Shown in pieces: positions 904 through 36,652 of a DNA stretch of 64,000 nt (the stretch's first letter is position 1; each line of letters starts with the position of its first letter). Both the position numbers and the translations under genes were made by a program. The DNA lies in assembly GCF_001562115.1 (NCBI RefSeq), contig NZ_CP013926.1, forward strand, positions 3,658,001-3,722,000, read 5' to 3'. Under the pieces are notes generated by a model that was not told the origin of the DNA, made no database searches, and worked only from the letters and a program-made list of their open reading frames with translations. Origin of the DNA: Alteromonas stellipolaris (lineage in GTDB: Bacteria > Pseudomonadota > Gammaproteobacteria > Enterobacterales > Alteromonadaceae).

Positions 904-3261
904 TTAATCGTCTACCCGCTGCTGATTAAGCCACTCCTGCAGTGCTTTCATGTCGTGCTGTACAGCCATTTGCAACTCTTCAACCCAATCGTGGACGTTC
1001 TGCCACCAGGTAGGGTGATCCCCTTGTTGAATTTGATTGGCAATACGTTGCACACGTGCAAGCCCTACAGAGCCTGCAGCCCCTTTAATCTTATGCGCTT
1101 GAGAGCACACTTCAGATTTTTCATCTGCACTTAGGCTTAACTGCAGAATTTCCATGTATTCAGGCATTTTTTCCTGAAACACTTTAACGCTTGCCCGCAC
1201 CATATCATCGCCTATTGTATCCACTAACATCTGGAGCAAGTCCATATCTAAAATGTTACTTAATATTTTACTCGGCTCTGGTGGGCGCTCTACCTGCCCT
1301 TCAATTTCCAACGGCGCAGGTGGCGCATGGAATAACTCGTTAAACACCTCAATCACGCGAGACTTCTTAATGGGCTTGGCGATAATATCGTCCATGCCGT
1401 TCTGCAAATACTCTTCCCGCTTTTTAATCACGTTCGCAGTAAGTGCCACAATAGGCGTTTGCATCACTAAGTCTTCTTCATGCAGCGTACTGGCCACGTC
1501 GAAGCCGGTCATATCTGGTAATTGAATGTCTAACAGTATCAGGTCGTATTGGGTAGCTCGGGCTTTATCAATGGCTTCTTGCCCTGTCATGGCCACATCT
1601 ACCTTTTGTCCCATTTTTTCTAGCAAGGCTTTGGCAACCATCACGTTAAGCTCAATATCTTCTACCAACAGAATATTCAAATCGGTAACTTGAAGCTGCG
1701 CCACTTGCATAGGCTTTTTCGATATCTCTACCGGTAGCTCTATTTCAAAGCGCGTACCTTTACCTACCACACTGGTAACTTTGATATTACCCTTCATCAA
1801 ATCGACCATTTGCTTACAAATAGCCAATCCAATGCCAGTACCCGTAGCAGACTGGTGGTCAGGGTGATCAACCTGATAGTACATGGCGAAGATCTTTTCT
1901 ATCTCTTCTTCAGGTATGCCTACCCCAGTATCTTCAATCACAAAGGTGACGAACGCTAAGTCATTTTCAGGTTTGGTGGCTTCAATCGATAAGCTTACGT
2001 GACCTTTTTGGGTAAACTTCACTGCGTTAAACAGGATATTCCACAAAATCTGGCGCAAGCGCGTACCGTCTACTTCAACCAACCTTGGTAGAGGCTCTTT
2101 AATCGTGGTTTTAAGCTCTAACTGTTTATCACCGGCTAACAGTCGAATAATACTGCTTAGCTCTTCGGTAAAATCTCGAAGCGATACGGTCTTCAAGCTC
2201 AGTTCAACTTTGTCTCTATCTAGCTTATCAAGGTCGATAATATCGTTGAAGATATTGCCAAGGGTGATAGCACTGGCATAAATAGTACTTACCCAGCTAA
2301 ATTGCTCTTCGCTTAACTCGGTATCGCGAAGCATTCTACTTAAGCCAACAATACCGTTTAGCGGCGTACGTAGCTCGTGGCTAATCGTGGCGATAAAGCG
2401 CGTTTTATCGGTACTGGCTTTCGCTGCTGCATTTTCTGCTTGTTTACGTTCAGTCATGTCTCGACCAAATGATAGCAAGCCTAAACGATTGCCTTCTTTA
2501 TCGAAGAAAGGTACTCGCTTCATTTCGAAGTAGCGACGGCGGCCATCGGCAAAGCGCAGCCATAACTCTTCGGTGATACTGGCGTTAGTTTCCAGCACTT
2601 CGTGGTCGCTGGCGACTATTTGACGGGCTAGGTCTTCTTCATAAACATCAGTTGGCGTTAAACCAAGCAGTTCTTGCTCGGTCTTACCTGTCATGAGCTC
2701 TGCTATACGATTGCAGCCAGCAAAACGCCCTTCTTCATTTCGGTAGTAAATAAGATCTGGCGAGGCATCGATAATCGAGCGAAGTAAGGTAGACAAGCGG
2801 CGGGCTTGTGCTTCTTGTTCAGATTTATCCTGAATTTCACGCTCTAAGTCTTTAAATAAGGCTTCACGCTCTTCTTGCGCTAATTTACGCTGCTCAATTT
2901 CGTGATTTAATTGGCGAATATTAGTTTGCAACTCGCGGTTAAGAAAAACATCTTCTTCTCGCAAGCGCTCTAATTGGCTTACCACTTCTTTAAGATTGGT
3001 ACGTGAGTTTTCTAACTGCTTTATTAGTTCGCTAAAAAAGTACAGCACCCAAGGTGCCGAAAGCATGGTTAGAATAACCGCGCTGATAAAGTCATCAGGT
3101 TGTACCGCACTGCCCATGCTTACACGAATTACGTAAGAGCCGCCAAGCGTAAATACCAGCGAAAATACCACGAACAGAATACTTAACTTAAGCGTACCAA
3201 AGCGCTGCACAAATTGTGCAAAGCGAATAGCCCAAGAGTCATTTGGAGAATCTGAATGCAT
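904..3261 (-). CDS. arcB: Aerobic respiration control hybrid sensor kinase ArcB
   Basis: A 785-residue tripartite histidine kinase close in length to E. coli ArcB (778). It has two N-terminal membrane segments (about 24-46 and 57-77), a coiled-coil linker (about 80-155), a PAS domain (about 155-275), and a kinase core with H295 in SHELRTPLNG. ATP-binding motifs include DTGVGIP and GTGIGLA. A receiver domain follows with D578 in LLDIQLPDMTG, then an HPt domain with H723 in AHKIKGAAGS. In the family the phosphate passes His-Asp-His to ArcA; arcA is not in this window. The PAS cysteine equivalent to E. coli C180 is present (C183 in AGCNRIAEL), but the position of C241 is a tyrosine (Y244 in RRRYFEMKRVP), so the two-cysteine quinone switch cannot be formed as in E. 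coli. It is transcribed away from gltB. Confidence 0.95.
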   Translation of the reverse strand: MHSDSPNDSWAIRFAQFVQRFGTLKLSILFVVFSLVFTLGGSYVIRVSMGSAVQPDDFISAVILTMLSAPWVLYFFSELIKQLENSRTNLKEVVSQLERLREEDVFLNRELQTNIRQLNHEIEQRKLAQEEREALFKDLEREIQDKSEQEAQARRLSTLLRSIIDASPDLIYYRNEEGRFAGCNRIAELMTGKTEQELLGLTPTDVYEEDLARQIVASDHEVLETNASITEELWLRFADGRRRYFEMKRVPFFDKEGNRLGLLSFGRDMTERKQAENAAAKASTDKTRFIATISHELRTPLNGIVGLSRMLRDTELSEEQFSWVSTIYASAITLGNIFNDIIDLDKLDRDKVELSLKTVSLRDFTEELSSIIRLLAGDKQLELKTTIKEPLPRLVEVDGTRLRQILWNILFNAVKFTQKGHVSLSIEATKPENDLAFVTFVIEDTGVGIPEEEIEKIFAMYYQVDHPDHQSATGTGIGLAICKQMVDLMKGNIKVTSVVGKGTRFEIELPVEISKKPMQVAQLQVTDLNILLVEDIELNVMVAKALLEKMGQKVDVAMTGQEAIDKARATQYDLILLDIQLPDMTGFDVASTLHEEDLVMQTPIVALTANVIKKREEYLQNGMDDIIAKPIKKSRVIEVFNELFHAPPAPLEIEGQVERPPEPSKILSNILDMDLLQMLVDTIGDDMVRASVKVFQEKMPEYMEILQLSLSADEKSEVCSQAHKIKGAAGSVGLARVQRIANQIQQGDHPTWWQNVHDWVEELQMAVQHDMKALQEWLNQQRVDD

Positions 3262-3911
3262 GAACGACTTATTTTTAGGATTATTTTCGACATATCCTAT
3301 CAGGGTTTATGCATTACGGAAATGCTCACTGAGTTCGCAAATATTGAAGAGTGGCTGCGCGTTTGGGTGAATTGACTTACTACGGTGCATTATTTGTACA
3401 ATACTGAATGATTCTGGTATCGTGTAAGAAAGGATTTACAACTACATAAAAATACAGCAAACAAGCCCTTGACTAGATATTAAACGCCTCAACATGAATT
3501 TTTATTCACTTTTGGCGATTTAAAGACACTTGCTATACTTTCATTGCCTACCAATAAGACGATATATTGGGTTATAACATTTTTGTTACAAAGATGAATT
3601 TATAAGTTTAACACCATGAAAATAGTGAATATTTTAAACTATATGCTAAATCTTTGTTATACCCCCTACTTTAGCGTTTGATTTTACATATCAATATAGG
3701 TATTTTGTACGCCCCGCAAAGCAATAATGCATAAAAATGCGGAACACGACTGGAATCCTCTAATAATAAATAACGACAAGAAAAGGCGCATAGAGCGGTA
3801 ATAGTGCCAGCTCGACAAAAGACGTCTGAACAATGTTGTGATACGCAATACCTAGGCGCATCTACACGCAACGCACACCTTGCCCCAGTCAAAGGTTGAA
3901 GGAGTTAAGAG
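3262..3911. other. Divergent arcB/gltB intergenic region
   Basis: About 650 bases without a convincing gene. The right half is AT-rich. It must carry the arcB promoter (leftward) and the gltB promoter and long leader (rightward). A 73-codon open frame at 3671-3892 on the minus strand has cysteine-rich, low-quality composition and no recognisable domain, so I do not call it. Confidence 0.6.
3512..3539 (+). promoter_or_regulatory. Candidate sigma-70 promoter for gltBD
   Basis: TTGGCG at 3512-3517 is followed after 16 bp by TATACT at 3534-3539, with the extended -10 dinucleotide TG at 3531-3532. If used, it would give a leader of about 365 nt before gltB. This is a match by eye in AT-rich DNA and is not proven. 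Confidence 0.35.
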
Positions 3912-9808
<5,897 letters not shown>

Positions 9809-10897: not shown

Positions 10898-12613
10898 TTA
10901 GTGTTTACCTGGAATAGCAGACATATCTTGGATAATCTTACCTACGCCAGAGTGATTAATAACACGCTGCTTCACGACATCTGCGTTTTCAAGCACATAA
11001 TCGTAAGGTACTTCAAAACTTGATGTAGGAGTTGCATCTGGCCCAGCGACAACATCCCCTTCTTCAGGCTCAGACCACGTGACTCCCTCACCGAATACGT
11101 TACCCGATGTGTTCCAATACCCAATAACATCGGAGTAAAAAGATACTATTGGGTTTTTGGTATTCTCGAACACGTTGTTCTCAATTTGTAACTCAGCACC
11201 AATTCTCGAATTGATGGCGGTAGAGGATATTTGGTTATAGTAGTTATTATACAAATGCCCGTGGCCATAGCGAAATAATGGCAATCGAGATTCAATATTC
11301 TCAAAGCGATTGTGATGGAAGGTAATTAAGCGCTCAGTGCTTGCACTGCTAGTATCGCTTTCGGTATGACCGTGCAACGATGCCTTCCAGTGATCATGCA
11401 GATAATTGTATGAAATAGTAATATTTTTTGCGCCCCGTTTACTATCAACTAACCCATCGTAAAAATCTTTATCTACCGCTAAGGTGCTATATAACTCGTT
11501 ATGGTCGATCCAAATATTGCTTGTGCTTGAACCGTCGTTATCACCTTCAATAGAGATAGCATCTTTACCTTCTGTAAGTACATGGTGGATACGTAAGTTG
11601 CGAATTATCACATTATTGGCACGTTTAATTAAAATACCAATTCCATCAAATTCACCTCTGTTGGCCACACCAATAATCGACACATCATTCATATCACGTA
11701 TTTCAATGGCAGACCCCGTGCCTCCTGAGTTGGCATCAGTAATAGTGCCATCAACATAAATCGTTATCGGTGTATTCGCTGCACTTGCATTATCCAGTGC
11801 AGTCTTTAAATCCAAACCGTTATCCACAGTAACGACCGTTCCACCCGCTCCACCAGTTAAATCGAAACTATACTGTGCGAAGCCGCTTGCCGTAAAGGTA
11901 GGTGCCGGCGCAATCTCTGGTACATTGGGTGCTTGCGGTTCCCAGCCTTCACCATTGTTAAAATGAGAAAAAATATCACTTCGATTGGTAAGCGCAGCAA
12001 CCTCACTCTCAGATAAAATGTACACGAACTCTCTAGCTGAAAGATCTAGTGGGTTACCGTTGATGTCCATACTGCCATACTCGCGCCAGCCTGCCGTCGA
12101 TGTTGCTGGACTAGGATTGGTAGCGGGTTGGTTTCGAACGCCTTCACCCGCCCAGCCCCTAGTCGCTATGTGAGTATCAAATCGATTATTAATAAGGGTG
12201 ATATTATCGAAGTAATCCGCACTTCCACCACTGCGTGCAATATAGGTTGAGTTATCAAGTACACCGTTACCGATAGGACCTGGTCCATGGGTAAATTGAT
12301 TGTTCAGGAAAATAAAACCTTTATTGGTAATCTCAGGAACTCTCGCCTGCAGAATGTACCCACCTGCGGTGTCTTCCTCTGGATCTCCATTTTTAGAATC
12401 ACCAATTGTTCGAATTTCACTCTCTTCAAACAACGCAGTATCAACATAGCCCCAGATGAAATCTACATTGCCTGCCACTAACGATTGGTAGAACCAACTA
12501 AAGCCTTTAAGCAAGAGCGTATCTTGTTCACTGACAAAGTTCATACGCACCGCGGTTAATCTTCCGGCATCGCTATTAAAATAATAGTGTTTCTGCTTGG
12601 TTTGAATAGGCAT
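10898..12613 (-). CDS. C-terminal part of frameshifted pectin methylesterase / PL1 pectate lyase
   Basis: This 571-codon frame has no signal peptide and starts in the middle of a pectin methylesterase (CE8) domain. It reads NSDAGRL, then SEQDT (D31, acid/base) and NVDFIWG (D51, nucleophile), with ATRGWAGEG later. Residues about 245-540 form a PL1 pectate lyase: WIDHN, FYDGLVDSK and ITFHHNRFEN with SRLPLFR are the usual calcium-binding and catalytic regions. The first catalytic motifs of the esterase are at the end of the overlapping upstream frame (12576-17033), so the two frames are parts of one ancestral gene of about 2,045 codons. The ATG at 12613 is unlikely to be a natural start; whether this part is translated at all is open. 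The PL1 domain itself appears complete. Confidence 0.8.
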   Translation of the reverse strand: MPIQTKQKHYYFNSDAGRLTAVRMNFVSEQDTLLLKGFSWFYQSLVAGNVDFIWGYVDTALFEESEIRTIGDSKNGDPEEDTAGGYILQARVPEITNKGFIFLNNQFTHGPGPIGNGVLDNSTYIARSGGSADYFDNITLINNRFDTHIATRGWAGEGVRNQPATNPSPATSTAGWREYGSMDINGNPLDLSAREFVYILSESEVAALTNRSDIFSHFNNGEGWEPQAPNVPEIAPAPTFTASGFAQYSFDLTGGAGGTVVTVDNGLDLKTALDNASAANTPITIYVDGTITDANSGGTGSAIEIRDMNDVSIIGVANRGEFDGIGILIKRANNVIIRNLRIHHVLTEGKDAISIEGDNDGSSTSNIWIDHNELYSTLAVDKDFYDGLVDSKRGAKNITISYNYLHDHWKASLHGHTESDTSSASTERLITFHHNRFENIESRLPLFRYGHGHLYNNYYNQISSTAINSRIGAELQIENNVFENTKNPIVSFYSDVIGYWNTSGNVFGEGVTWSEPEEGDVVAGPDATPTSSFEVPYDYVLENADVVKQRVINHSGVGKIIQDMSAIPGKH

Positions 12614-15600
12614 TACTTCGAATATGTGAATTTTTCAGAGTAAAGTTATTAAAGGTTAAGTCATCTACGCCCTCTATAAGAAACACACTTCTGCCGCCTG
12701 AAGGAGTCCCTGTTGAGGGCGCTTCGCTTTTGCCACTCCCGCTGTTAAAGCTTTCAAAGTTGTCGTAATAAACAAGGGTATTGTCACGGCTCTCTCCTTG
12801 CAAAGTAACCTTATTGTTACCCCGTAAGAACAGCATTTCTTGATATTCACCGTCTCTAATCGTGACGTTCGACGGTGTTTCAACAGGGACATTTTGCATA
12901 ATGTGATTAAGCGCGCCCTGCACCGTGCGAAAATCGGCCTCAGCGTCGTCATCAACGACAATCGAATTGCCTGAAGGAGCGGCCTCTCGAGTACTAAAGG
13001 CCCAATCCGCATCTTTCCCAAGGCCTACAAACGTTTCTCCATTCAGAGTACCGCTGGTTAAGACGTTATCCCCAATAGATACATAGTAAGAATGACCGTA
13101 ATCGAGTGCATTTGTATGCGGCTTAACTACAAGTGAATTCCCCTTAACGTAAACTGGACGATAATTAACTTTGCGTTGTCTTTCCTGGCCTTTGAAACCA
13201 ATGTAGTCGGTATCACCAGCTACATTCACCACATCGACAAGCGTATCGTCAGAAGCGTTGTAAATGCGAATTTCACCGCTACTCCCTAACGTGGGCGTAT
13301 CGTCAAACGTTAAGGTGAGTAGCGTATCGACATAAGCATTTTGATTGCCAGAACTGGGGATCGTATCCGCAGACAAATCACCATAAGCGGCCGTCGGCAT
13401 AATAAATCCTTCCTCGACAGTAACAGCAATGTGCTTTACTAACGTGGGGTCAGAACCCGATGTGATTGTGACTATCGCATTTCCTTCAGCCGTAGGCGTA
13501 AGTGTCACCTGCGGGCCATCTTGAGCAATCGTTAATACATTGGCATCACTGGTTGTTACGGTAAATGTATCTTCGGTAATACCATCATCTTGCACTGCGG
13601 TGACATAGATAAACAACGGATCGCTACTGGTGGTGGTTTCCCAATTAGGCTCTTTATAATCAAGCGTAAGCTGAACCGGCTTTACCAACGGGTTTCCAAC
13701 CTTGAGGTCATCTAATTCAAAAGATCTGTTGTTGGTAAAAATTCCTATTAAACCCGCTGCGTTATAGGTTGAATCCACAGTACTCCCCATGTTTTCACCA
13801 TCAAGGTAAACCGTTAGGTTTTCACCATCCATGTCAAAACGTACTCGATACCACGTGCCATCAGTTTCCTCTTTTTCACCTAGCAAGATAGGTGATTTTT
13901 TCTGTACAGGACGGGCAATGCTCCCATCAGTACTAATCGCCACTTCAACTTGCGTGCTACTCGATGAATTTTGTATATTAAGTCCACCAGCGTACCAGTT
14001 GCCAGCACTAACATAACGCCCCATTAAGAAAAGTTGTTTGTTACGAGTAGTACTATTTTGACGCGGACGAATACGGGCTTCGACATAATAATTGCCGCTT
14101 TCAGGCAACCCACTTAGTGCCGTTTCTTTAACTAACAAAATTTCCCCGCCTTCGCCACCAGCGGTATAACGAAGAACGTTGTTGCCATCATCATCAAGAA
14201 TATCGAATACGCCTTGAGGTCCGTTAGTGCCTGCATCGTCTGCAATCAGGGTAAAGTTATCCAATGAACCTTCTGCAAAATCGTCACAAAAATAAAGTTC
14301 AGGCTCGCTATCACAATTGAACTGACTATTGTTAGGCGCATCACCAACGTAGGCGATGACCACGTTATCAATCACTACTTTACCGCCACTTTCAGTTCGC
14401 ATTTGAAGAAACGACGTGGGCGTTGCAACCAATCCTTCTATCGTCAACTTTTGGCCTGGTATGAGGGAGGTAATGAGTTCGCTGTAGAACTTAGAATCAC
14501 TGCCATGTATCGACTTACCACTACTACTGGTATTGTTATCGACATAGATTTGGAAGTTGTTATTAGCTTCGGCATCTTCTATAGCAATCACATCCATGCT
14601 AATCGTGTATTCACGGCTTAAATCAAGCACGCCAGTCGTGGTGGTATCTTCAGCTGTGGTATCGATTTCAGGAGTGGTATTGCCCAACGTGAATCGAGCG
14701 CTGTCCATAGATAATTCGCCGTCAGTGATGGTAATACCTGAACCACCACCGGTAACACTATAAAAAGGCGTAGTAGCATCGGTCGCTTTATACTCTGCAC
14801 TAAAGAAAGTATCGATATCGGTTTCAAACGTTTCATCTAACAATACATTCGCTTCGATATACTCAATATGAATATTGTCGATTACGACAACTGAGCCACT
14901 TTCGGTTCTAAATTGTAGGTATGAATTTGGTGTCGCTACCTGCCCCTCTACGGTCATGGTAGTCCCTGCTACTAAATCAACCACCGGCTCATTAAAGAAA
15001 CGTGAATCTCCCCCTAAGTGTGAATTAGCGCTACCTGACGTATTATTATCTACGTAAATTTGGAAGTGATTATCGCCTTCGGTATCTTCCGCTGAGATAA
15101 CATCGAATACCACCGTGTATGGCCGACTTAAATCGAGTGCGCCGGTAGAAGATGTATCGTCAGACGAGCTTATTACATCCGGCTCAGTGTTTCCTAACGT
15201 GAAACGACCACCATCCAGTTCAATACCGGTTGCAACCTGAGTTACAGAGCCGCCGGTAATACTAAGCATAGGAACTTGTTCACCCTCCCCATTTTCTATT
15301 GCAGCAAAATTAGTTGAAAATATATCTTCACTCTCTTCGGCAAAGCTGAGCGACAGGGGTAGCGATACACTTGGAATAATAACGGGTTCTTCAGGCTCGG
15401 TAGGATCCGGTTCTGACGGCGGAGGCGGTTCAACCGCATCTGCTATCGTCTCAATTTTTAAATTATCAATGGTAATCGTTGCACTTGAGTCTGTGCGTAA
15501 TTGGAAGAAGCTATTAGTGATACTGCTGTCGAGTATTTTGGCATCTGGAGCCGTGGGATCACCACCGCCAATATCGTCGCCAGGCTCGTAGGTATAAGTG

Positions 15601-17033
15601 AAACGTTCACCCGCCACTATAGCGCCATCCGCTAAACCTTCACTCACAAATTTAGAGGCAGCACCATGTACAGAGTTATCTTGTCCTGTCGTGTTGTTGT
15701 CGACATAAAGCGAGAATGACCCACCACTATTATGAGAAATAACATCGAAGCTAATGGTAAAACCTTCACTCAGGTTGTAAATACCCGAGCCTACGGTATT
15801 AGATGAAGATGTGTTTGCACCAGGGTTTTGAGCGGCGTTTCCAATGCTAAACCGATCGCCTTCCAAGGTAAGCTGTCCTGTAGTAGCATCAACTAATGGG
15901 CTACCACCGGTAACGTAATAAAGCGCACCAGCATCAGGCTCGTCACTTAGACGTTTATATGAAGATGAAAAAAATGTATCTGTATCGGTATCAAAATTCT
16001 CTTCTAGTGCGGCTTGAATAGCGTTCGCGGCCTCCTCTAACTTCATCAATTGTGCGTCAGACTGTGCTTGAGTAAAAGCGAACAAATACGCTGCGGGATC
16101 GTCTTTAGCCAGACAACTTTCAACTTGTAGTGCTAACGCGTTAGTCGTGGCTTCTTCGCCCGATACCACACAAAGGCTGTATACATCGTTTACCGTATTG
16201 TAAGCCCGAGAAATAAGGTGCTCAGTCTGATCGTCATAATTTAACGTAATGACTTTTCTGCCAAATGAAAACGTGTAACTGCCAGTAACGTTAGTTTCGC
16301 CGTGAACCCGTACAAAACCACCTGCTAAATTTGTTTCATCGCTTGGTGTAAAGGTATAAGTGGCTTGAGAAACCGTACGCCCTTTAATGTTTGGGGCGTA
16401 TATTTCCCCAGTAAATTTTGTCACATCAAAGGTATTTGGAAACAATGTACCAAGATCAGTTTCAAGATAATTGACGAAGTGAGTTACGGCAGTTGCTTTA
16501 TCAACAAGGGTACTACTCGCCCCGCCAGCCGAGCCTAGCCAAATTTCTACGTCGGCGGCAAAATCAGCATCTGATTGATTAAAGAAATCACCAAGTGACT
16601 GCCCGTCATCAAGGGTGGCCACTGCCACATTAGCCGCGCTATCGCTAACCGATATACCGTTGCTAGCATCGCCATCAATATCTAACGATTGAAGCAAACG
16701 AATGGTATTCACTACCGATTGATTAAATGGGTTGTCGGTAGCGAATAAATCGAGAGGTGATATAACACTAGATGCTGGCGCATCAGGAAATATGAGGTCA
16801 CCTATATGAAAGCTTAGTTGCTCACCTCTAAAATAAGAAAACTCTCCACTGGCATTGGTTACGCCATCGGGGACCGATGCAGATGTATAACCCAACCCCG
16901 ACACCGGACTGTCTACAAACACCCCTGTTAATGCGGGATCTGGGGGAAGGGTGACATTAGTGTTGCTTTTTTCGCCGCAGGCGCTAATGAGAATAACACC
17001 GCCCACAAGGGCTGCTATTTTTGTGAGTTTCAT
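12576..17033 (-). CDS. N-terminal part of frameshifted pectin methylesterase lipoprotein
   Basis: The ATG at 17033 follows GGAG by 10 bases and is preferred to a TTG nine bases upstream, which sits too close to that ribosome site. The protein is a lipoprotein (lipobox ISAC, C19). Next come a calx-like module (about 30-330), three tandem repeats of about 170 residues (14340-16010), a laminin-G/concanavalin-like domain (CDDFAEGSLDNF), a BIG-type and an SbsA/Big_5-like domain, then the start of a CE8 pectin methylesterase. The esterase motifs DGEYQE and NQAETL are present, then the frame stops. The rest of the esterase and a pectate lyase are in the next frame at 10898-12613. It lies about 100 bases behind the TonB receptor, probably cotranscribed. 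As read, the esterase would be inactive because the catalytic aspartates are lost. Confidence 0.8.
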   Translation of the reverse strand: MKLTKIAALVGGVILISACGEKSNTNVTLPPDPALTGVFVDSPVSGLGYTSASVPDGVTNASGEFSYFRGEQLSFHIGDLIFPDAPASSVISPLDLFATDNPFNQSVVNTIRLLQSLDIDGDASNGISVSDSAANVAVATLDDGQSLGDFFNQSDADFAADVEIWLGSAGGASSTLVDKATAVTHFVNYLETDLGTLFPNTFDVTKFTGEIYAPNIKGRTVSQATYTFTPSDETNLAGGFVRVHGETNVTGSYTFSFGRKVITLNYDDQTEHLISRAYNTVNDVYSLCVVSGEEATTNALALQVESCLAKDDPAAYLFAFTQAQSDAQLMKLEEAANAIQAALEENFDTDTDTFFSSSYKRLSDEPDAGALYYVTGGSPLVDATTGQLTLEGDRFSIGNAAQNPGANTSSSNTVGSGIYNLSEGFTISFDVISHNSGGSFSLYVDNNTTGQDNSVHGAASKFVSEGLADGAIVAGERFTYTYEPGDDIGGGDPTAPDAKILDSSITNSFFQLRTDSSATITIDNLKIETIADAVEPPPPSEPDPTEPEEPVIIPSVSLPLSLSFAEESEDIFSTNFAAIENGEGEQVPMLSITGGSVTQVATGIELDGGRFTLGNTEPDVISSSDDTSSTGALDLSRPYTVVFDVISAEDTEGDNHFQIYVDNNTSGSANSHLGGDSRFFNEPVVDLVAGTTMTVEGQVATPNSYLQFRTESGSVVVIDNIHIEYIEANVLLDETFETDIDTFFSAEYKATDATTPFYSVTGGGSGITITDGELSMDSARFTLGNTTPEIDTTAEDTTTTGVLDLSREYTISMDVIAIEDAEANNNFQIYVDNNTSSSGKSIHGSDSKFYSELITSLIPGQKLTIEGLVATPTSFLQMRTESGGKVVIDNVVIAYVGDAPNNSQFNCDSEPELYFCDDFAEGSLDNFTLIADDAGTNGPQGVFDILDDDGNNVLRYTAGGEGGEILLVKETALSGLPESGNYYVEARIRPRQNSTTRNKQLFLMGRYVSAGNWYAGGLNIQNSSSSTQVEVAISTDGSIARPVQKKSPILLGEKEETDGTWYRVRFDMDGENLTVYLDGENMGSTVDSTYNAAGLIGIFTNNRSFELDDLKVGNPLVKPVQLTLDYKEPNWETTTSSDPLFIYVTAVQDDGITEDTFTVTTSDANVLTIAQDGPQVTLTPTAEGNAIVTITSGSDPTLVKHIAVTVEEGFIMPTAAYGDLSADTIPSSGNQNAYVDTLLTLTFDDTPTLGSSGEIRIYNASDDTLVDVVNVAGDTDYIGFKGQERQRKVNYRPVYVKGNSLVVKPHTNALDYGHSYYVSIGDNVLTSGTLNGETFVGLGKDADWAFSTREAAPSGNSIVVDDDAEADFRTVQGALNHIMQNVPVETPSNVTIRDGEYQEMLFLRGNNKVTLQGESRDNTLVYYDNFESFNSGSGKSEAPSTGTPSGGRSVFLIEGVDDLTFNNFTLKNSHIRSNAYSNQAETLLF
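14340..16010 (-). repeat. Three tandem ~170-residue protein repeats in the pectinase lipoprotein
   Basis: Three consecutive coding units, at about 15440-16010, 14850-15360 and 14340-14845, share the pattern F-D-T-F-F at the start, R-F-(T/S)-(L/I)-G-N, IYVDNN or LYVDNN, a loop with G-x-x-S-K/R-F, (Q/L)-M/F-R-T-(E/D)-S, and (V/T)-I-D-N at the end. They look like copies of one jelly-roll, probably carbohydrate-binding or adhesive module. Units 2 and 3 are more alike than either is to unit 1. Confidence 0.7.
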
Positions 17034-17131: not shown

Positions 17132-20068
17132 TTAGTAGAACTTAATATTTACGCCAAGCTGATAGCTGCGGCCATACTCTTCCTTTTGAAACAGCACATT
17201 ACCGCCACTTAAGGCATTGCCTTCGAAATAGCGCAAGTCGGCTTCATCGGTAAGGTTAATTGCATCGAAATAGACTTGGGCATAATCAGTGATGTCGTAC
17301 TGAAGTTTGAAGTCGAGACTTTTCACATCGTCTTGATATTGGTCACCCCATACCTTACAAGCTTTTGGATCGTTCAAATTAGCAGTGCCTGGACAGGAGC
17401 CAATTTGCTCAAGAACTTCTGAGCGCATATTGCCAATCAATCGAGCCGAAAAGGTTTTACTTTCCCACCCTACAACAAGATTAAATGTTGTATCAGCCTG
17501 ATCCGGTAAGGCCACAGTTCCCTGACGAATACTGCTATCTAAAGTGGCTTCGCTATCTAGCAAAGTCGCGTTGCTTTGCAAGAAAAAACCATTTTCAAAG
17601 TATTGATTGTAGCTAAGCTCTATCCCAAATACGGTGGCTTTGTCCCCATTAACGGTAATGTTGATTTCGTTGAGGTATAAGTCTTGTGGAATGACAAACT
17701 CGGTCACCTGATTAACCGGTAACGTAAGGGGAAGTTCATCAAGCGACATGCCTATACCGTTAACATCAACAATAAAATTATCGATGTCTTTGTAAAACAC
17801 AGCCGCTTCCATGAATAGGTTTTCGCTAGGATACCATCCAATTGATGCATCGTAGTTAATCGAGGTCATTGCCAATAAATTAGGATTGCCAACATCTAAT
17901 GCGTTGTCAGAGCCCAATACAAACTGGCTAAGCTGTTGTAACGAAGCGCCACCTTGGCTATCGTCACAGTCATCAGAGCCCGGAGGGCACAGCTCAATAT
18001 CACTATCAAAAATGGCATATGCGCGTGCTTGTTTAAATGATGGACGCGTAAAGCTGGTCCATACCGCTCCCCGAACTAACAAGGTTTCAGAGGGCTCCCA
18101 TTTCACATGTGCGCTTGGGAAAAACTCACTGTATTTGATGGTTGCATCAGGAAGAGGAATAGCAATATCTAACGTACCCGCTCCTGCCCCATTGAACTCA
18201 AAGTCATCGTTTTCAAGTGACATATAACCCGCAGATGAAAATTCTGTTTGTGCCCAACGAACGCCCGTTGTTAACGTAGCGTCAGCTCCAAGTGGAAGTT
18301 CCGCCATTGCGTAGACTGCTTGTGTATCTTCAACAATGCTGTAGTCGCCTTTAGTACTTTCTATTGATACTTCACCGTTGGTCGCGGGCACCACCGTTTG
18401 CCGTGTAGCATTAACGATTTCATCAACAACACTACGACTTTCGAAGGGCAGTTGAAAGGCGCTGTTGTCAGGAATACTACTTTCATAATCGGCCAAAGTG
18501 GAATTAACAGCCGCAATGCAAACCTCGTCGCTACAATCACTCGCAGAAGGATCGAAACTCCACCGGTCTTTATTACGCACATGGTCTCGTTCGGTAACTT
18601 CGGCACCTATCTTAATGAAGTCTAACCAGTCGTTAAAAACATCGGCGCGTAAATTCAAACTGAAGGTTTTAATCTCATCAACACGGTCGCCTCCTTCGAG
18701 AAACAAATTATCGAATTGATAATTGGAAAGGTCAGAGCCATCTCCACTTCCCGACGTGCCAAATATGCTGTTATTGGGGTCATAAGAAAGACCAGCGATA
18801 CCTGCTGCTTCATCTGGACTAAGCGTTTTTGCGCGTATGTTATCTCTAGATGCTTGGCCATATACAATCAGGTCGCGCTCGCGAAATTGAACCCGCCTAT
18901 CACCGTTTGAGTCTTCGTCAGAACGAGACTGGGCATACTCATAATCGAACACAAATCTATCGGCAATTCTATTTTCTCCCCCGATACTGAAGGTCGCCGT
19001 TTTGTTCTCACTTTCTTGAATAAAATGCTGATGAAAAACATCGATATCACTGAGAATAAATTCTTTTGTTTGGCTGTTTACGTAAACAATTTCCCCATTA
19101 CCTACCGAACCGGCATCTTGAAAGTCGTAGAATTCCCTTAAGGCTAAATCGTCGTCTTCGAATTGCGTGTACGTTCCTTTAACATAGTAGTACGCATCTG
19201 CAGAAGGCTTGTATTCAATATTAAGCGCTGCAGCTTGTCGGGTTCTCCCCGCTATTTCTCGGCGAACTTCAAGCTGAGCCGGAGCGAGAATTTCGTCTCC
19301 CGCAGCAATTTCTTCCTCGGTTTTACCTAAATCAGCCGTGTAAAACTTCATTTCGTTACTACTATGATGACGGGTTTCGTCTATTTGCGTTTTTCGGTCT
19401 TCATGTGAAAGCGCAAATCCTATGCCAAGGGTGTTCTCAAGAAAAAATTGAGTCCCGTCAATGCTAAATTTAGGTGAATGGGCTTCACGAGCATCTGAAT
19501 ATGCATCTTGAATGCGCATTTTGAGGGTGTTCTTTCCTCGATCAAACGCCGATATTGCTTTTACGTTAACGGTGCCGCCAATCGAATTTAAATTCTGATC
19601 TGGGGTCAGCGTTTTCAGTACCTCAATGGTTCCTAATAAATCAGCGGGCAGCGCATCTAGGCCTACTTTGCGCTCTTCGCCTGCGCCTGACATCTGTGAA
19701 CCGTTCATGTTGATAGATACAAAACCAGGCCCAAGGCCTCGAACCGTTACGTACTTCCCTTCACCTTCAGAACGCTGCAGCGTAACACCAGGCAACCGTC
19801 TAAGAGACTCAGCAACGTTTTGATCAACAAAATTTCCTAAATCGTCGGTTGAAATAACAGAACTAAACCCGCTTTTCATCCGCTCTAAATCACGAGCTTT
19901 CAAATCGGCTTGTTTAACCCCTTTTACTTCAACTACTTCTATATCATCAGGGGTGTCACTAGCTTGGGTTTGTTCAGTTTGATCTTCTATCGACTCATTG
20001 GTTTGTGCCATGCCTGAAAAGGCTGTGGAAACCGTTAGCGCAAGCGCTGTCCATTTAAACACTTTCAT
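17132..20068 (-). CDS. TonB-dependent outer-membrane receptor, likely for pectin oligomers
   Basis: A 978-residue outer-membrane receptor with a signal peptide ending near FSGMAQT. It has a plug domain (about 55-170) of the type DQNVAESLRRLPGVTLQRSE and VRGLGPGFVSINMNG, followed by a beta-barrel ending in GVNIKFY. This plug style fits the large Xanthomonas/Caulobacter-type receptors for carbohydrates. AGGAG lies 9 bases before the ATG. The substrate is inferred only from neighbours: pectate lyases on both sides and a pectin methylesterase behind it. A 14-bp palindrome (20122-20135) and a -10-like GATAAT lie in its upstream region, so it probably responds to the same regulator as the lyases. 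Confidence 0.88.
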   Translation of the reverse strand: MKVFKWTALALTVSTAFSGMAQTNESIEDQTEQTQASDTPDDIEVVEVKGVKQADLKARDLERMKSGFSSVISTDDLGNFVDQNVAESLRRLPGVTLQRSEGEGKYVTVRGLGPGFVSINMNGSQMSGAGEERKVGLDALPADLLGTIEVLKTLTPDQNLNSIGGTVNVKAISAFDRGKNTLKMRIQDAYSDAREAHSPKFSIDGTQFFLENTLGIGFALSHEDRKTQIDETRHHSSNEMKFYTADLGKTEEEIAAGDEILAPAQLEVRREIAGRTRQAAALNIEYKPSADAYYYVKGTYTQFEDDDLALREFYDFQDAGSVGNGEIVYVNSQTKEFILSDIDVFHQHFIQESENKTATFSIGGENRIADRFVFDYEYAQSRSDEDSNGDRRVQFRERDLIVYGQASRDNIRAKTLSPDEAAGIAGLSYDPNNSIFGTSGSGDGSDLSNYQFDNLFLEGGDRVDEIKTFSLNLRADVFNDWLDFIKIGAEVTERDHVRNKDRWSFDPSASDCSDEVCIAAVNSTLADYESSIPDNSAFQLPFESRSVVDEIVNATRQTVVPATNGEVSIESTKGDYSIVEDTQAVYAMAELPLGADATLTTGVRWAQTEFSSAGYMSLENDDFEFNGAGAGTLDIAIPLPDATIKYSEFFPSAHVKWEPSETLLVRGAVWTSFTRPSFKQARAYAIFDSDIELCPPGSDDCDDSQGGASLQQLSQFVLGSDNALDVGNPNLLAMTSINYDASIGWYPSENLFMEAAVFYKDIDNFIVDVNGIGMSLDELPLTLPVNQVTEFVIPQDLYLNEINITVNGDKATVFGIELSYNQYFENGFFLQSNATLLDSEATLDSSIRQGTVALPDQADTTFNLVVGWESKTFSARLIGNMRSEVLEQIGSCPGTANLNDPKACKVWGDQYQDDVKSLDFKLQYDITDYAQVYFDAINLTDEADLRYFEGNALSGGNVLFQKEEYGRSYQLGVNIKFY

Positions 20069-20206: not shown

Positions 20207-21550
20207 TTAATGCTGATTTGGAGTAATTCCAGCAAGTATTTGCCACTTTTCGTCACTAACAGGTTGCTGAATTTTAATGTTGGAAGGTATTTTCAGGTTA
20301 AAGTATTCGTTGTAGTCTTCCCATGCCATTACATCTAACTCATTATCTATAATTCCCTTTTCATACATATACGTATTAGTTGTTAGCTGGGCAAGAATCC
20401 GAGTATCGACAGGGTCTAATTGCATACCGTACCGAGTTTGATTTGCGCCTATATTCCTGTTAATGATCAATGTATTCCAGCTCGCTTCTGCACTTACAAT
20501 AGGGTCATTCAGCGCATCAATCGCCTTTGTATTAAGCGGCTTATCCACTAAGACGTTGTCTAATATAAGCTGTGCGGATGGGGTATTTAACTTAAGATTC
20601 TTTACAACAACACCTAACCGGTTATTAGATGTCATCTGTGGATGAGAACGCATTACGTTGTCGGCAATAAAAACCGACGTTGCGGGATTATCAAGCGCCC
20701 ATATTTGATAGAACCACACTTTCTGTGTAGCTGGTCCTGGCACGTATACATTACCTACAAGGTTGGCTTTCCCATTTTCCCCTCCATAGGTTGAGTTGCT
20801 CTGCCAATTGGCAATTATGTTGTTTCTGATGTCGACAAATTCATTTTTCTGAGCATAAAGAGGCTTAAGCCGCCACCCATTAATTCTAGGATTTCGGCTG
20901 GTGTGGTTTGCAAGTAAATTCTGTATAAAACTTGCATTGCTTCCCCCCCATATCCCGCCATACCCATGGTTACCCTTGTGGTGCCCCGCATTATTCAGGC
21001 TCTCAGATAGAATGCTGTTTTGAAGTGTGAACCGTTCGTTGTTGTAGAAAGATCCTACTTCGTCGCTAGACCAGCTAAGAGAACAATGGTCTATTATGAC
21101 ATCTTTTGTGTTGCGTACCGTGAGGGCATCGCCCTCTTCGCTTGAGCGGCCAGGCCGAAAGCGCAAGTGCCGAAAAATAACCTGATTAGCCTCTATGCTG
21201 GTAGAAGCTCCTGAAATAACGATGCCTCTAGGGGAAGTATGCCCTGCGATAGTCACGTTTCCATGTTTTATTTCAAGCTCTTTCTCCAAGTGAATAATGC
21301 CTGAAACGCTAAACACGATGAGCCGAGGATAAGCCTGTCTTACTGCCCACCTAAGCGTACCTTTTTGAGGGGATTTAGCATTATCATTTAATGACGAAAC
21401 TACTAGGACTCTTCCACGGTTTCCGCCTTCTGTATACTTTCCAAATCCTCTTGCCCCATCAAACGCTAACGGCGTGGCTTCACACCTAAATAAACCGCAA
21501 TAGAAAAATACACACGATAGTATTACGCATCCAGATACTAAATATTTCAC
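20207..21550 (-). CDS. Secreted PL1-family pectate lyase
   Basis: A 447-residue protein with an N-terminal signal peptide (about 1-26) and a right-handed beta-helix lyase domain. The family start AFDGARGFGKYTEGG and the sequences GTLRWAVRQAYPRLIVF, IFRHLRFRPG and IIDHCSLSWSSDEV are characteristic of the PL1 branch in which D-H-C-S-S-W replaces the classical motif. It should cleave pectate by beta-elimination in the periplasm or outside the cell. The GTG start overlaps the iclR stop (GTGA), so it is translated with the regulator. An adjacent downstream unit starts the TonB receptor with its own operator. Confidence 0.82.
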   Translation of the reverse strand: MKYLVSGCVILSCVFFYCGLFRCEATPLAFDGARGFGKYTEGGNRGRVLVVSSLNDNAKSPQKGTLRWAVRQAYPRLIVFSVSGIIHLEKELEIKHGNVTIAGHTSPRGIVISGASTSIEANQVIFRHLRFRPGRSSEEGDALTVRNTKDVIIDHCSLSWSSDEVGSFYNNERFTLQNSILSESLNNAGHHKGNHGYGGIWGGSNASFIQNLLANHTSRNPRINGWRLKPLYAQKNEFVDIRNNIIANWQSNSTYGGENGKANLVGNVYVPGPATQKVWFYQIWALDNPATSVFIADNVMRSHPQMTSNNRLGVVVKNLKLNTPSAQLILDNVLVDKPLNTKAIDALNDPIVSAEASWNTLIINRNIGANQTRYGMQLDPVDTRILAQLTTNTYMYEKGIIDNELDVMAWEDYNEYFNLKIPSNIKIQQPVSDEKWQILAGITPNQH

Positions 21551-22290
21551 ACTGATTCCTCTTCATCAGCAAGACTAAAGGTTAGGGGTATTCGAGCGAT
21601 GGACTTTAGTTTTTCACCCCATGATTGTAATGTCTTGTAATCGAACTCTTTGCCTTCAAGTTCTACCGCCAACATGGCAACAAACTCTCCTTCTTTTGCA
21701 AATACAGGAACCGAAAGTAACGTTGCATTCCGTCTAGTGTAATAGCTCATGGCAAACCCACGAGTACATACTTCAGTCCGGTATTTCGTGGCTAGATTTT
21801 TATCGAAAAACGCTATTTTTTCAGAATCTTTAAGGCGTGTATAACGATTATGATATGTGAGCATAATATGACCTGGTGCAGAGTTAAAAAGTGGAAGTTT
21901 GCTTCCTGGACGAATGCTTGATATACGGCTTGGGCGCGCATCCAATACATCAATAACAAATGCACAATAATCGCCTGGCACACATATAATGGCACTGCAG
22001 TCTGAAGAAGCTAACAAAGAAGCAAGCGACGGTGCGATAAGCCTTTGAAGATGGCGGGCGCGAGAATTAGCCGCAGAAATTTCGTAAACTCTACTACCGT
22101 AAAAGTAGCGAGTTCCTCGTTTTTCAATTACCCGTTCACTCGACAACGTTCTTAGTAATCTAAATACAGATGTACGCGGTAGGTGAAGTGTCTCTTCAAT
22201 TTGAGTAGCCGTTAATCCAGTTTTAGATTTAGCAATGAATTGACACAATTGAATTGCTTGAAAAACACTGGGAATAATATATCGCTCCAT
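21547..22290 (-). CDS. IclR-family transcriptional regulator of the pectin locus
   Basis: A 247-residue regulator. The N-terminal winged helix (about 8-65) includes GLTATQIEETLHLPRTSVFR, and an effector domain (about 75-240) contains LPLFNSAPGHIML and VCTRGFAMSYYTRRNATLLS, as in IclR proteins. Enterobacterial pectin loci are controlled by the IclR protein KdgR, so a KdgR-like role is plausible. The local palindrome is not a typical IclR target, so this protein and the palindrome-binding protein may be different. It is the first gene of a two-gene unit with the PL1 lyase and carries one operator copy upstream. Confidence 0.8.
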   Translation of the reverse strand: MERYIIPSVFQAIQLCQFIAKSKTGLTATQIEETLHLPRTSVFRLLRTLSSERVIEKRGTRYFYGSRVYEISAANSRARHLQRLIAPSLASLLASSDCSAIICVPGDYCAFVIDVLDARPSRISSIRPGSKLPLFNSAPGHIMLTYHNRYTRLKDSEKIAFFDKNLATKYRTEVCTRGFAMSYYTRRNATLLSVPVFAKEGEFVAMLAVELEGKEFDYKTLQSWGEKLKSIARIPLTFSLADEEESV

Positions 22291-22399: not shown

Positions 22400-24436
22400 T
22401 TACTGTCTAGTCAATTCAAACATTTGATTGTCTGCTTGAGCAATACAAGTCCACTGAATTATATTGGCACCATTACCCCCGCCCTGCCCAGCTATATCAA
22501 GGCATAGCTCGCTGTTTCTTGCTACAATTCGCCACTTACCCGAACCGGCAGATTGAAAGCGGAACAGTTGATTATTGCCTCCACTATATTGCCACAATTG
22601 AACGTTCTCCCCTGCAGATGTCGAGTTATTTGATATCTCTAAACTCTGCTGCAATGCGTTTAATGGTGAGATACGGTGCCAAATTCCATCCACTTGCGAA
22701 ATGGTAAATTTTTGACAATCATTGTCTAACCATTCCCATTGGCGAATATTTGAACCATTTGTAGTTCCGCAGTTGGCTACATCAAAACTTCGTCCGCTAT
22801 GTACAGGGGTAATTCTATAGATTCCGTTCACCGTGCCATTGACAACATTTGAACCTCCATCACTACTGCCCCCTCCATTACTATCTAGCCCAAAATAAAT
22901 TTCGAATTCAGCTATTTGAGGCGTCGATGATGATGAATCAATGACAAAGTTAAGTTTGCCTAAGCTTACATCTGAAAACGTTATGGGATCAGGAATAGTG
23001 TTACCTGATGTAATGATTGAACCAGTGTCGTTATTAACCAATCTCCAAGACGTAACGCGCCCTTCAGCACCACTTCTTTCTACAATTCGAACTGCGTTAA
23101 TGGTTGTGTCCAACCCTTTGATACTAACGCGACCGGTTGAACCGTTAGGTGACCAATAGGTGCTGGTATCCCCATCTTTAACGTTGCCATAACTGGTACC
23201 ACTTGCTTTTGAACTACCATCAGCATCGGCCGAGAGAGAGAGGTTAACGCCGGAAGGCGTATCGCCGTTATCACCGCCGCCGTTATCACCGCCGCCGTTA
23301 TCACCGCCGCCGTTGTCACCACCGCCGTTGTCACCACCGCCGTTGTCACCACCGCCAGTAGTTCCACAACTACCGTCAGATACTTGCAAATTTTTATTCG
23401 CGCCAGCTGTTTGTTGCAAGATGTTGCGGACGCATGAGGCATTATCGAGAGTATAAGAATACGGGATGCCAACACTAGTGGTAGAAACCACGTTCGGACC
23501 GGCTGGCTGATAGTCATCGTCAGATGAACTCCATGTTACGCCGCTTCCAAAAATGTTCCCGGCTACCTGCCAATCGCCATCAGTCGTGGTATAAAACGTT
23601 CCCAACACATCTTTAGCATCTTCAAAATAGTTATTCTCAACTTTAACCTCAGCCCCTGCTCTTGAATTGATACCCGACGATTCAATACCGTCGTAATGAT
23701 TGTTGTAAATATGCGCAGTGGCCCCTCGCACTAGAGGTACTCGCGAGTTTAAATTCTCAAAAATATTATGGTGATAGGTTAATGGCCCATTATTGACTTG
23801 GGATTCGCTTGAACCTACTAATCCCCCACGACCAGAGTTGAGCAAATGACTGTACGAAAGCGTGATATATTTTGAATTGTCCTTTACATCAAATAACCCG
23901 TCGTAACCCTCGCTTTCGCCGCCACTTGCTTCTAATGTTACGTGATCTACCCACACGTTTCGCACATCGGTTTCAATACCGATGGCATCGCCACCGTTAG
24001 ATGTTGGTGAACCCGATTTTTTCACATTTCGAACGTGAACATTTCGTATAATAATGTTGGTAGAATTCCGTATGTGTATTCCAAGTTCATCAAACAAGGC
24101 ACCTTGACCTACCCCTATAAGGGTTACGTTACTAATGTCTTTTAATTCAATTTTATCCTCTGCGGTATTGCAACTACTTCCCGACACTTTTTCAGTATTA
24201 CCGTGATTTATAGTGCCTTCTACTTCGATGATAATCGGTGTTTCACTGGTGTTCCGATTACAGAGTGCCTCATGTATCTGTTTGCCCGTTGTTACGCGTA
24301 CCACATCACCTCCTGCGCCACCGGTCGCACCCCCGTTTTGGGTATGAAAGCCCGAGCCATAAGCACCTGACATTGAGCACACAAGCAATACAGCAATCGA
24401 GGCTCTACCTTTCTTCAAATTAGTTATAACATTCAT
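22400..24436 (-). CDS. Pectate lyase PL1 with discoidin-like and ricin-type (CBM13) domains
   Basis: The ATG at 24436 is preferred over one 48 bases upstream because it is preceded by AGGGA at proper spacing and gives a clean signal peptide (MNVITNLKKGRASIAVL to SGAYG). The 678-residue product has a PL1 lyase domain (about 45-350) with VWVDHVTLE, GYDGLFDVKD, LTYHHNIFEN and SRVPLVR. A (GGGDN)x6 linker follows, then a discoidin-type domain (about 405-520) and a ricin-type beta-trefoil (about 540-675) with QW motifs in RQWEW and IIQWTC. The binding domains should hold it on pectin-containing material. It has its own operator copy at 24587-24600. Confidence 0.88.
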   Translation of the reverse strand: MNVITNLKKGRASIAVLLVCSMSGAYGSGFHTQNGGATGGAGGDVVRVTTGKQIHEALCNRNTSETPIIIEVEGTINHGNTEKVSGSSCNTAEDKIELKDISNVTLIGVGQGALFDELGIHIRNSTNIIIRNVHVRNVKKSGSPTSNGGDAIGIETDVRNVWVDHVTLEASGGESEGYDGLFDVKDNSKYITLSYSHLLNSGRGGLVGSSESQVNNGPLTYHHNIFENLNSRVPLVRGATAHIYNNHYDGIESSGINSRAGAEVKVENNYFEDAKDVLGTFYTTTDGDWQVAGNIFGSGVTWSSSDDDYQPAGPNVVSTTSVGIPYSYTLDNASCVRNILQQTAGANKNLQVSDGSCGTTGGGDNGGGDNGGGDNGGGDNGGGDNGGGDNGDTPSGVNLSLSADADGSSKASGTSYGNVKDGDTSTYWSPNGSTGRVSIKGLDTTINAVRIVERSGAEGRVTSWRLVNNDTGSIITSGNTIPDPITFSDVSLGKLNFVIDSSSSTPQIAEFEIYFGLDSNGGGSSDGGSNVVNGTVNGIYRITPVHSGRSFDVANCGTTNGSNIRQWEWLDNDCQKFTISQVDGIWHRISPLNALQQSLEISNNSTSAGENVQLWQYSGGNNQLFRFQSAGSGKWRIVARNSELCLDIAGQGGGNGANIIQWTCIAQADNQMFELTRQ
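23264..23357 (-). repeat. 15-bp tandem repeat coding for the (GGGDN)n linker
   Basis: About six copies of a 15-bp unit read GGGDN in the lyase linker. The first copies (forward left) use gttatc and the later ones gttgtc, showing two sub-blocks. Such runs change length easily by slippage without breaking the frame. Confidence 0.8.
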
Positions 24437-24586
24437 CTTTAATCCCTGAATTTTATTAAAAAAATAAAAATAAACTTTTACCAAAAACTAAGAAAACATT
24501 ACCTTCAATTACTTCAAAAAAGATATTAAAGCTAAACTAAAGCAAAAGTTCACAAGCTATTTTAAATAAGTAAACCAACCACCAAA

Positions 24587-34576: not shown

Positions 34577-36652
34577 TCAGTTGTTATAATAACCAGCGCG
34601 CCTCATTACGGCTTCAGATTGGTGTTGCGCTGTTTTTAATGCCTCTTGAATAGTAACTTGCTGCTTCACTGCTAAATTTATCTGAACTCCCACAAGGTAA
34701 CCGAGCGCCGTAAATTCTGGGATTGGAACAAACTGGCTTCCAGTCGTGGGGACATTAATATTATCAAGCTCAGTTGCTAGCAGTGCGTTGTATTCATAGC
34801 TAGCATAAGGAATAGCGTTTATATAGCTGTCACTGTAGGTTGAATGACGAGTGCCAGCTGGCGCTGCGTAATAACCATACTTACCTTTAACCGAAGTAAT
34901 AAACGCTTTAGAAGTTAACCAATAAGCTAATTGCTGTGCTATTTCTTTATTGTGAGCTAAATGAGGTATCGCGAAATTCCACGACCAAAACCATTGTGCC
35001 CCTTTTGGTGTTGTTCCTATTGGCGCATAAGTCACCCCGACATTCTCCGAAACTTTCGAAGAAGAAGGATCTAAGATGTAGCCACCTAATGATGATGCAT
35101 CAACAAAGAATGCTAATTTTCCGTCAGCAAAGAGTTGCTGGTTATCTTTCCACCCTAAATCGTATTCACCTGGGGGACCGTTGTTTACCGCGATTGAAAC
35201 ATAGTCCTTGATTGCTCGCTCCCACGACCTAGAAGTAAGCAGCGGCTTCATATCTTCATCAAACCAGCTTCCACCGTACGTATTTACCATGGTGCCAATT
35301 AATGCCATATTTTGCCCCCAACCTACTTTTGTGCGCAGCCCTACACCATACAGTTGCGATTTGGGATCTTGAATTTCCATAGCAATGGCGCTTAGGTTTC
35401 TATAAGTCATCTGCTTGGGCAAACTAATATCAGCGTTCTGCAACAGATCTTTTCGGTAGAAGGTTAGCGTTGTTTCTCCTACAAACGGTAAACCATAGAC
35501 CTCACCTTCGTATGTATTTGAATGCTTTGCGATGGGTATAATATCTTTCATATCGTAGTTCGAGGGCGGCTCGGGAAAAGGTAACAACCAACCATTTCTG
35601 GCCCAAATAGGCACCTCGAAATTACCTAGCATTACTAAGTCAAACTGTGTTTCGTTAACTGCAAAATCTCCCTGTATGTGCTTTCTGAGTATACTCTCCT
35701 CCATGACACGCCACTGAATATCTTGCTCTGGGAAAGTCGTACCGCTGTCATTCAAGTATCTAATAGCGGTTTCAATACCATTAATATTAGGCGCACCAAC
35801 TATTAATTTTCTCTCTGTAACGACATTTTCCGGCTCGATGAAAATACCGTATCGCTTTAATATTGTATCGATGCTTCCATCAGCTTCTAGAGAAGCCAAT
35901 GCTTGATTGAAACGCGCAATAATTTGGGGGGCGTCGGGCAAGTTTTTCGATATCCCTAAGAAATGGGGATTGCTTTTTCTAAGCGATTTAATGAATTTAA
36001 ATTTCTGTGATAAGTGGGGACGATGATTAGTTATTGTTTGTTTTGCGCTGTATTCATCTATATAAATAAAGTCAACTCGCCCCCTATCTAACATATCTAA
36101 CAATGTCGGTAATGATTTGGCTAAGAGTACATCGATATTTTCAGCCTCACGAAGACTCAACGGCAACTGTGCACCGCGTAAAACCCCAAGACGGGAAAGG
36201 CCTAAGTTGTTGAATTGTGATATCGAATCGCCTAATTCGGTGTTTAATAAGCTATGAATGTTTCGACTGTTATGGACAAGATAGTTGATGCTCCCACCAC
36301 GGATAGCATCGGAATATATCATCCCCTCAACACGTACTGTGCTATCGCGAAGTGGAAAAACACCTTCAACTTTTCCGCCGTCGGCGAGATATATCGCTCT
36401 AGCATGTGGAAAGAATTCAATTTTGGGGATGTAGCCCATTTTTTCAAATGTAAGGTGAATGACCTCGTTTACGTACCCTTGTTTAGGGTTGTGCGCGCTA
36501 CTGAATGGACTCGCTTCTGAGGTGGCTAAAGTAATTGTGTTTCGTTGCTCGGCGTAAACGCCAAGTGAAAACGTATAGCTTCCAAGTAGAACCAAAAATA
36601 CCGAAAAATGGCTGATGATATTTGAGTTAATAGAGCCAGACCAATTATTCAT
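34577..36652 (-). CDS. Protein with two fused solute-binding domains
   Basis: A 691-residue exported protein (signal peptide about 1-35, ending GVYAEQ). Residues about 38-280 resemble amino-acid-type binding proteins (SBP family 3): ITLATSEASPFSS, GYVNEVIHLTFEKMGY, DGSIDTILKRYG. Residues about 290-650 resemble sugar-type binding proteins (SBP family 1): VYGLPFVGETTLTFYRKDLL, LFADGKLAFFVD, AQWFWSWNFAIP. Families 3 and 1 are normally separate proteins. No ABC permease or ATPase lies nearby, so a capture or sensing role is possible. An FucP-like sugar permease and an OprB-like porin are the next genes. Confidence 0.75.
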   Translation of the reverse strand: MNNWSGSINSNIISHFSVFLVLLGSYTFSLGVYAEQRNTITLATSEASPFSSAHNPKQGYVNEVIHLTFEKMGYIPKIEFFPHARAIYLADGGKVEGVFPLRDSTVRVEGMIYSDAIRGGSINYLVHNSRNIHSLLNTELGDSISQFNNLGLSRLGVLRGAQLPLSLREAENIDVLLAKSLPTLLDMLDRGRVDFIYIDEYSAKQTITNHRPHLSQKFKFIKSLRKSNPHFLGISKNLPDAPQIIARFNQALASLEADGSIDTILKRYGIFIEPENVVTERKLIVGAPNINGIETAIRYLNDSGTTFPEQDIQWRVMEESILRKHIQGDFAVNETQFDLVMLGNFEVPIWARNGWLLPFPEPPSNYDMKDIIPIAKHSNTYEGEVYGLPFVGETTLTFYRKDLLQNADISLPKQMTYRNLSAIAMEIQDPKSQLYGVGLRTKVGWGQNMALIGTMVNTYGGSWFDEDMKPLLTSRSWERAIKDYVSIAVNNGPPGEYDLGWKDNQQLFADGKLAFFVDASSLGGYILDPSSSKVSENVGVTYAPIGTTPKGAQWFWSWNFAIPHLAHNKEIAQQLAYWLTSKAFITSVKGKYGYYAAPAGTRHSTYSDSYINAIPYASYEYNALLATELDNINVPTTGSQFVPIPEFTALGYLVGVQINLAVKQQVTIQEALKTAQHQSEAVMRRAGYYNN

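Follow-up and report, generated by a model that had tools for sequence, protein, structure and literature searches.

The window, i.e., the whole 64,000-nucleotide stretch of DNA analyzed here, is contained in the 4.65-Mb contig C1 of the genome (G000), and its pectin locus is on the minus strand (Table 1). The best-matching named records come from marine Alteromonas and their kin, namely, A. abrolhosensis, A. marina, A. confluentis, Aliiglaciecola, Paraglaciecola, and Pseudoalteromonas. Two overlapping open reading frames (ORFs), which the ORF list places where the original prediction had put them, adjoin the gene of a TonB-dependent receptor, and other genes of the locus are intact. One of the latter, the pectate-lyase-like protein, is a divergent lyase that falls just under the Pfam cut-off. 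Elsewhere in the window (34577 to 36652), a single protein combines an amino-acid-type SBP_bac_3 part (below cut-off) with a sugar-type SBP_bac_1 domain.

Table 1. Features of the pectin locus, with positions in the window
Feature	Position	Strand	Basis or remark
C-terminal ORF	12613-10898	minus	571 codons; rest of CE8 and PL1 pectate lyase
PL1 pectate lyase domain (Pectate_lyase_4)	10934-11899	minus	Pfam, projected from P0001
CE8, second part	12149-12583	minus	Pfam match below cut-off for that piece; motif alignment
Junction	12576-12592	minus	one base longer than in relatives; 0-frame reads UUU UAA U
CE8, first part, up to NQAE	12590-12962	minus	projected from P0001 Pfam match
N-terminal ORF	17042-12576	minus	1488 codons from TTG; ORF list
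TonB-dependent receptor, intact ORF	17132-20068	minus	adjoins the broken gene; ORF list and Pfam
Pectate-lyase-like protein, intact ORF	20207-21550	minus	Pfam, 21.5 bits against a cut-off of 24
IclR-type regulator	21547-22290	minus	
Second PL1 pectate lyase, with ricin-type lectin domain, intact ORF	22400-24484	minus	Pfam

The split gene and its domains

Comparison with the start of P0001, the nearest full-length entry (21 members) in a protein database of 90% identity clusters, indicates that the N-terminal ORF is likely to begin at an ATG at 17033, three codons past its TTG. It opens with a lipoprotein signal and a LISAC lipobox, recognized by eye, and continues through long noncatalytic modules, among them a LamG/3-keto-disaccharide-hydrolase-like module (both Pfam matches below cut-off), into the first half of a CE8 domain, where it ends as ...SNQAETLLF in an out-of-frame tail and TAA. 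The C-terminal ORF overlaps it and reads ...YFNSDAGRL...SEQDT...NVDFIWG; inspection by eye revealed no signal peptide. Aligned to P0001 (2045 amino acids), the N-terminal ORF corresponds to residues 1 to 1486 (93.5% identity) and the C-terminal ORF to residues 1485 to 2042 (95.5%), and because these ranges abut, the two ORFs represent successive portions of a single protein. Alignment to G052, the nearest relative, gives ranges of 1 to 1489 (94.0%) and 1488 to 2045 (94.3%). Between QAE and FN, both included, the window has 25 bases of DNA, compared with 24 (by pattern form) in relatives. This observation of two frames and one extra base is not explained by chance. The database cannot show an intact copy from the same species, because it is clustered at 90% identity and its nearest full-length entry is 93% identical (P0001 against residues 1150 to 1488 of the N-terminal ORF); the protein search with the C-terminal ORF admitted only proteins of ∼314 to 999 residues, so that full-length relatives could not appear.

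As originally proposed, the frameshift lies inside the CE8 domain and between its motifs: the Pectinesterase range in P0001 (residues 1359 to 1629) spans the junction, and the QDT and DFI(F/W)G motifs follow the break. The Pectinesterase profile (PF01095) matches P0001 with 43.9 bits, above the curated cut-off of 27, which assigns it to CE8; the C-terminal ORF alone reaches 19.8 bits, below that cut-off, and the N-terminal ORF alone gave no match at an E value of 0.001. The QDT and DFI(F/W)G aspartates are catalytic in pectin methylesterases. Both lie downstream of the break (QDT at ∼12521 to 12523 and VDFIWG at ∼12461 to 12463), are present in P0001 and the C-terminal ORF, and align with those of a second CE8 protein, which is related to the pectin methylesterase 1qjv by alignment and is encoded by an intact gene elsewhere in the genome (G000:C1:2771790-2772683). 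Motif comparison suggests that the branch of CE8-PL1 fusions may have diverged around the active site, yet with both aspartate motifs kept. The PL1 domain, to which the original prediction had not referred, is wholly downstream of the break and is therefore severed along with the second half of CE8. Its profile (Pectate_lyase_4, PF00544) matches the C-terminal ORF with 120.2 bits, well above the cut-off of 24 that defines PL1 here, and is found in P0001 at residues 1786 to 1956; the best solved relative of P0001 is 7xks (E value, 8.8e-86). The arginine of the GRPW motif is conserved in CE8. A single pairwise alignment (25% identity) places no arginine of P0001 opposite the GRPW of the second CE8 protein.

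The junction in relatives and its surroundings

The predicted one-base excess is borne out by 47 of 49 relative loci, which carry the junction motif in one frame, with 24 bases rather than 25. The motif is missing in the other two, of which L062 begins at a contig edge and L059 was matched in the PL1 part only. The window is also one base longer than its relatives in all 10 correctly oriented rows of a first alignment (18 relative rows, 8 of them from the wrong strand and left out); the 10-row and 49-locus collections overlap in genomes. The DNA of G052 is closely similar on both sides of the junction, which is the sole length change in the aligned stretch. The finding that the original prediction had named as contrary to it, a complete CE8 protein starting or ending at these positions, was absent among the 47 motif-showing loci, and plasmid records yielded two distant matches.

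Among the 18 genomes of the same genus that gave a long match, 16 have an open frame of 2045 to 2109 codons, the exceptions being G050 (1529 codons) and G023 (1676 codons, on a 5.6-kb contig ending near the match). Outside the genus, open frames are more variable (1103 to 2426 among motif-showing loci). An inner stop had been reported for G035; its counterpart L037 has an open frame of 2045, with no break seen either at the junction or before it. In the draft genome of Alteromonas oceani S35 (L045, the counterpart of G050), an in-frame TAG is found at codon 559 of the frame 2972 to 9235, i.e., in the N-terminal modules far upstream of the junction, and other orthologues can therefore also be broken, at other places. 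In Paraglaciecola MAG_65 (L040, ∼4145 to 4259), the N-terminal part aligns to L039 in two frames, amid repeated modules. Neither irregularity is at the junction site of the window. In a further locus of the genome that contains the window (L001, 51 to 1313 and 1168 to 2484), an intact CE8 ORF overlaps the end of an ORF that, judged by eye, resembles a GH28 polygalacturonase.

The isolation of the break was assessed in a frame survey of ORFs of ≥100 codons, in which 660 kb of G052 was set against the 664 kb surrounding the window. G052 contributed 511 ORFs, of which 75 had no match at 65% identity and 436 were matched; only 2 of the 436 looked internally broken in G000, i.e., the present gene, which was the only collinear frameshift, and one partial match with an inner stop (G052:C1:931282-932199). 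Two ORFs were partial, and 12 whose stops were confined to the first 60 or last 20 residues were set aside. The reverse survey matched 439 of 507 G000 ORFs (68 without a match), and one looked broken in G052 (candidate break at G000:C1:3926554-3927000). A smaller earlier survey had returned six and four cases, all of which, except for the present gene, had their stops confined to the first 48 residues and therefore represent over-extended starts rather than breaks. The assembly is thus not indel-rich in this region, as there are almost no other frame breaks in ∼660 kb.

Constraint was compared on the two sides of the break. The dN/dS ratio against G052 is 0.105 for the N-terminal part and 0.083 for the C-terminal part. 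With the A. abrolhosensis gene (L033) as the outgroup, 70 synonymous and 13 nonsynonymous codon changes on the branch leading to the window precede the break, and 39 and 3 follow it; the corresponding counts on the G052 branch are 74 and 14 before the break site and 31 and 1 after it. Neither the branch counts nor dN/dS revealed relaxed constraint past the break, and there is no decay. As judged from these codon changes, the C-terminal part is under strong purifying selection and is as constrained as the rest. Of the features expected of a pseudogene, a frame disrupted relative to orthologues was therefore found, and relaxed constraint after the break was not. The absence of decay implies that the break is very recent, that it is an error, or that the downstream part is still expressed.

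Alternative explanations of the extra base

Four causes had been offered for the break: true inactivation, sequencing error, a phase-variable switch, and recoding. The first two are retained here, and the last two found no support. A single base-calling or assembly error, with an intact gene in the living strain, is a serious contender to which we assign somewhat less than an even chance. It would be consistent with the full constraint and lack of decay in the C-terminal part, with a break shared by none of the 47 motif-showing loci, and with the general finding, in the available part of the GeneTack study (PMC3711429), that singleton frameshifts are often errors. In that account of 1106 prokaryote genomes, similarity-confirmed singleton frameshifts are expected to stem from sequencing error and not from genuine indels, and isolated breaks of this kind are attributed to errors or recent indels, with errors favored. 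The frame survey of G052 and G000 argues in the other direction, with two candidates (including the present gene) among 436 matched ORFs in an assembly that is not indel-rich, as does the location of the site outside a long homopolymer, although both are compatible with one error. The case for a real mutation alone is weakened in turn by the constraint on the C-terminal part, which fits a very young mutation and a sequencing error equally. We lean slightly towards a real mutation, given the clean local assembly and the position of the site outside a long homopolymer.

A further possible cause is translational correction, in which +1 slippage at the shifty stop UUU UAA allows a small fraction of the ribosomes to complete the full-length enzyme. 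In principle, the local sequence permits this: UUU lies within UUUU before the 0-frame stop, so that tRNA-Phe could shift its pairing forward by one base, and the +1 frame at the stop is that of the C-terminal ORF. The constraint on that part, and the corrective frameshifting of indels described in the accessible portion of PMC5009743, also agree with slippage. Nevertheless, such correction is very unlikely. TTT AAY is present at a conserved F-N in 20 of the 47 relative loci; a UAA at this place thus results from long-standing codons as soon as the frame is lost, and it does not have to be a signal that evolved. There is no Shine-Dalgarno-like match in 12576 to 12620, the downstream RNA fold (76 nt) is no better than shuffles (z-score, +0.63), a comparison of the window with Rfam at gathering scores found 0 matches, and the frame changes at the junction in none of the 47 motif-showing loci. 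Neither of the hallmarks of a programmed frameshift, a conserved site (47 of 47 loci in a single frame, 49 examined) and a stimulatory element, was found, and the recoding originally suggested is thus improbable. There is similarly little likelihood that the extra base is real and tolerated through a +1 slip, such that some ∼2045-residue lipoprotein is made and downstream selection persists.

The phase-variable on/off switch, which would operate by strand slippage, has a one-base length change as its sole point in favor and is highly improbable. The longest single-base run in 12561 to 12640 is the five-base AAAAA at 12631 to 12635, ∼45 bases from the junction, where the run is only TTTT; judged on single-base runs, there is no repeat or homopolymer tract at the break, and a second state was seen in 0 of the 47 motif-showing loci. 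Gene fission, giving two genuine overlapping genes, can be discounted almost entirely. An ATG at 12613 does start the C-terminal ORF 38 bases ahead of the end of the N-terminal ORF, but the split would be inside one Pfam domain (P0001 match, projected), the C-terminal product lacks an apparent signal peptide and aligns to P0001 and G052 only from its residue 11 onward, and no Shine-Dalgarno-like sequence was seen by eye before the ATG.

A probable recent indel, its expected consequences, and known parallels

The overall explanation is most likely ordinary, i.e., an isolated indel or a single error. On balance, and only just, we regard it as probable that the break is an isolated, lineage-specific one-base indel in the gene of an exported CE8-PL1 lipoprotein, making this a very young pseudogene; a limited literature search found no report that names the frameshift. 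With a real indel, the extra base would take translation off its normal frame within the CE8 domain, with a stop about four codons on. The exported product would then be an N-terminal stub, predicted to lack the CE8 catalytic aspartates and the PL1 lyase and to have neither esterase nor lyase activity. The C-terminal ORF, having no apparent signal peptide, would probably go untranslated or yield a useless cytoplasmic product. Some pectin breakdown would continue through the remaining intact PL1 and CE8 genes. As far as the available text of PMC6972757 indicates, growth of A. macleodii on pectin is linked to its PL1 copy number, and reduced, rather than lost, pectin use would therefore be expected if the break is real. 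The locus would in that case provide a clean example of a marine strain that loses one large exported pectinase and keeps its other pectin genes. If the extra base is instead erroneous, the two fragments in the record should be replaced with one gene.

The junction can be compared with known systems of three kinds. In the bacterial +1 recoding of prfB, a slippery codon is followed by a stop, and the +1 frame continues. The window shares with this shifty stop the slippery codon, the stop, and the onward +1 frame. It differs in having no conserved site, no Shine-Dalgarno-like stimulator that could be found, no known regulatory logic, and UAA instead of UGA. The singleton frameshifts of GeneTack (PMC3711429), which are classed there as hypothetical pseudogenes or sequencing errors, are likewise similarity-confirmed breaks that are unseen in homologues and lack a recoding motif, with no notable difference from the window. 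Counterparts by domain content are the CE8-PL1 fusions of P0001, G052, A. marina, A. abrolhosensis, A. confluentis, and Pseudoalteromonas lipolytica, which have the same domains in the same order. In each the fusion is a single gene, with a C-terminal part 67 to 95% identical to that of the window, and the junction is read in one continuous frame, whereas the window carries an extra base inside CE8.
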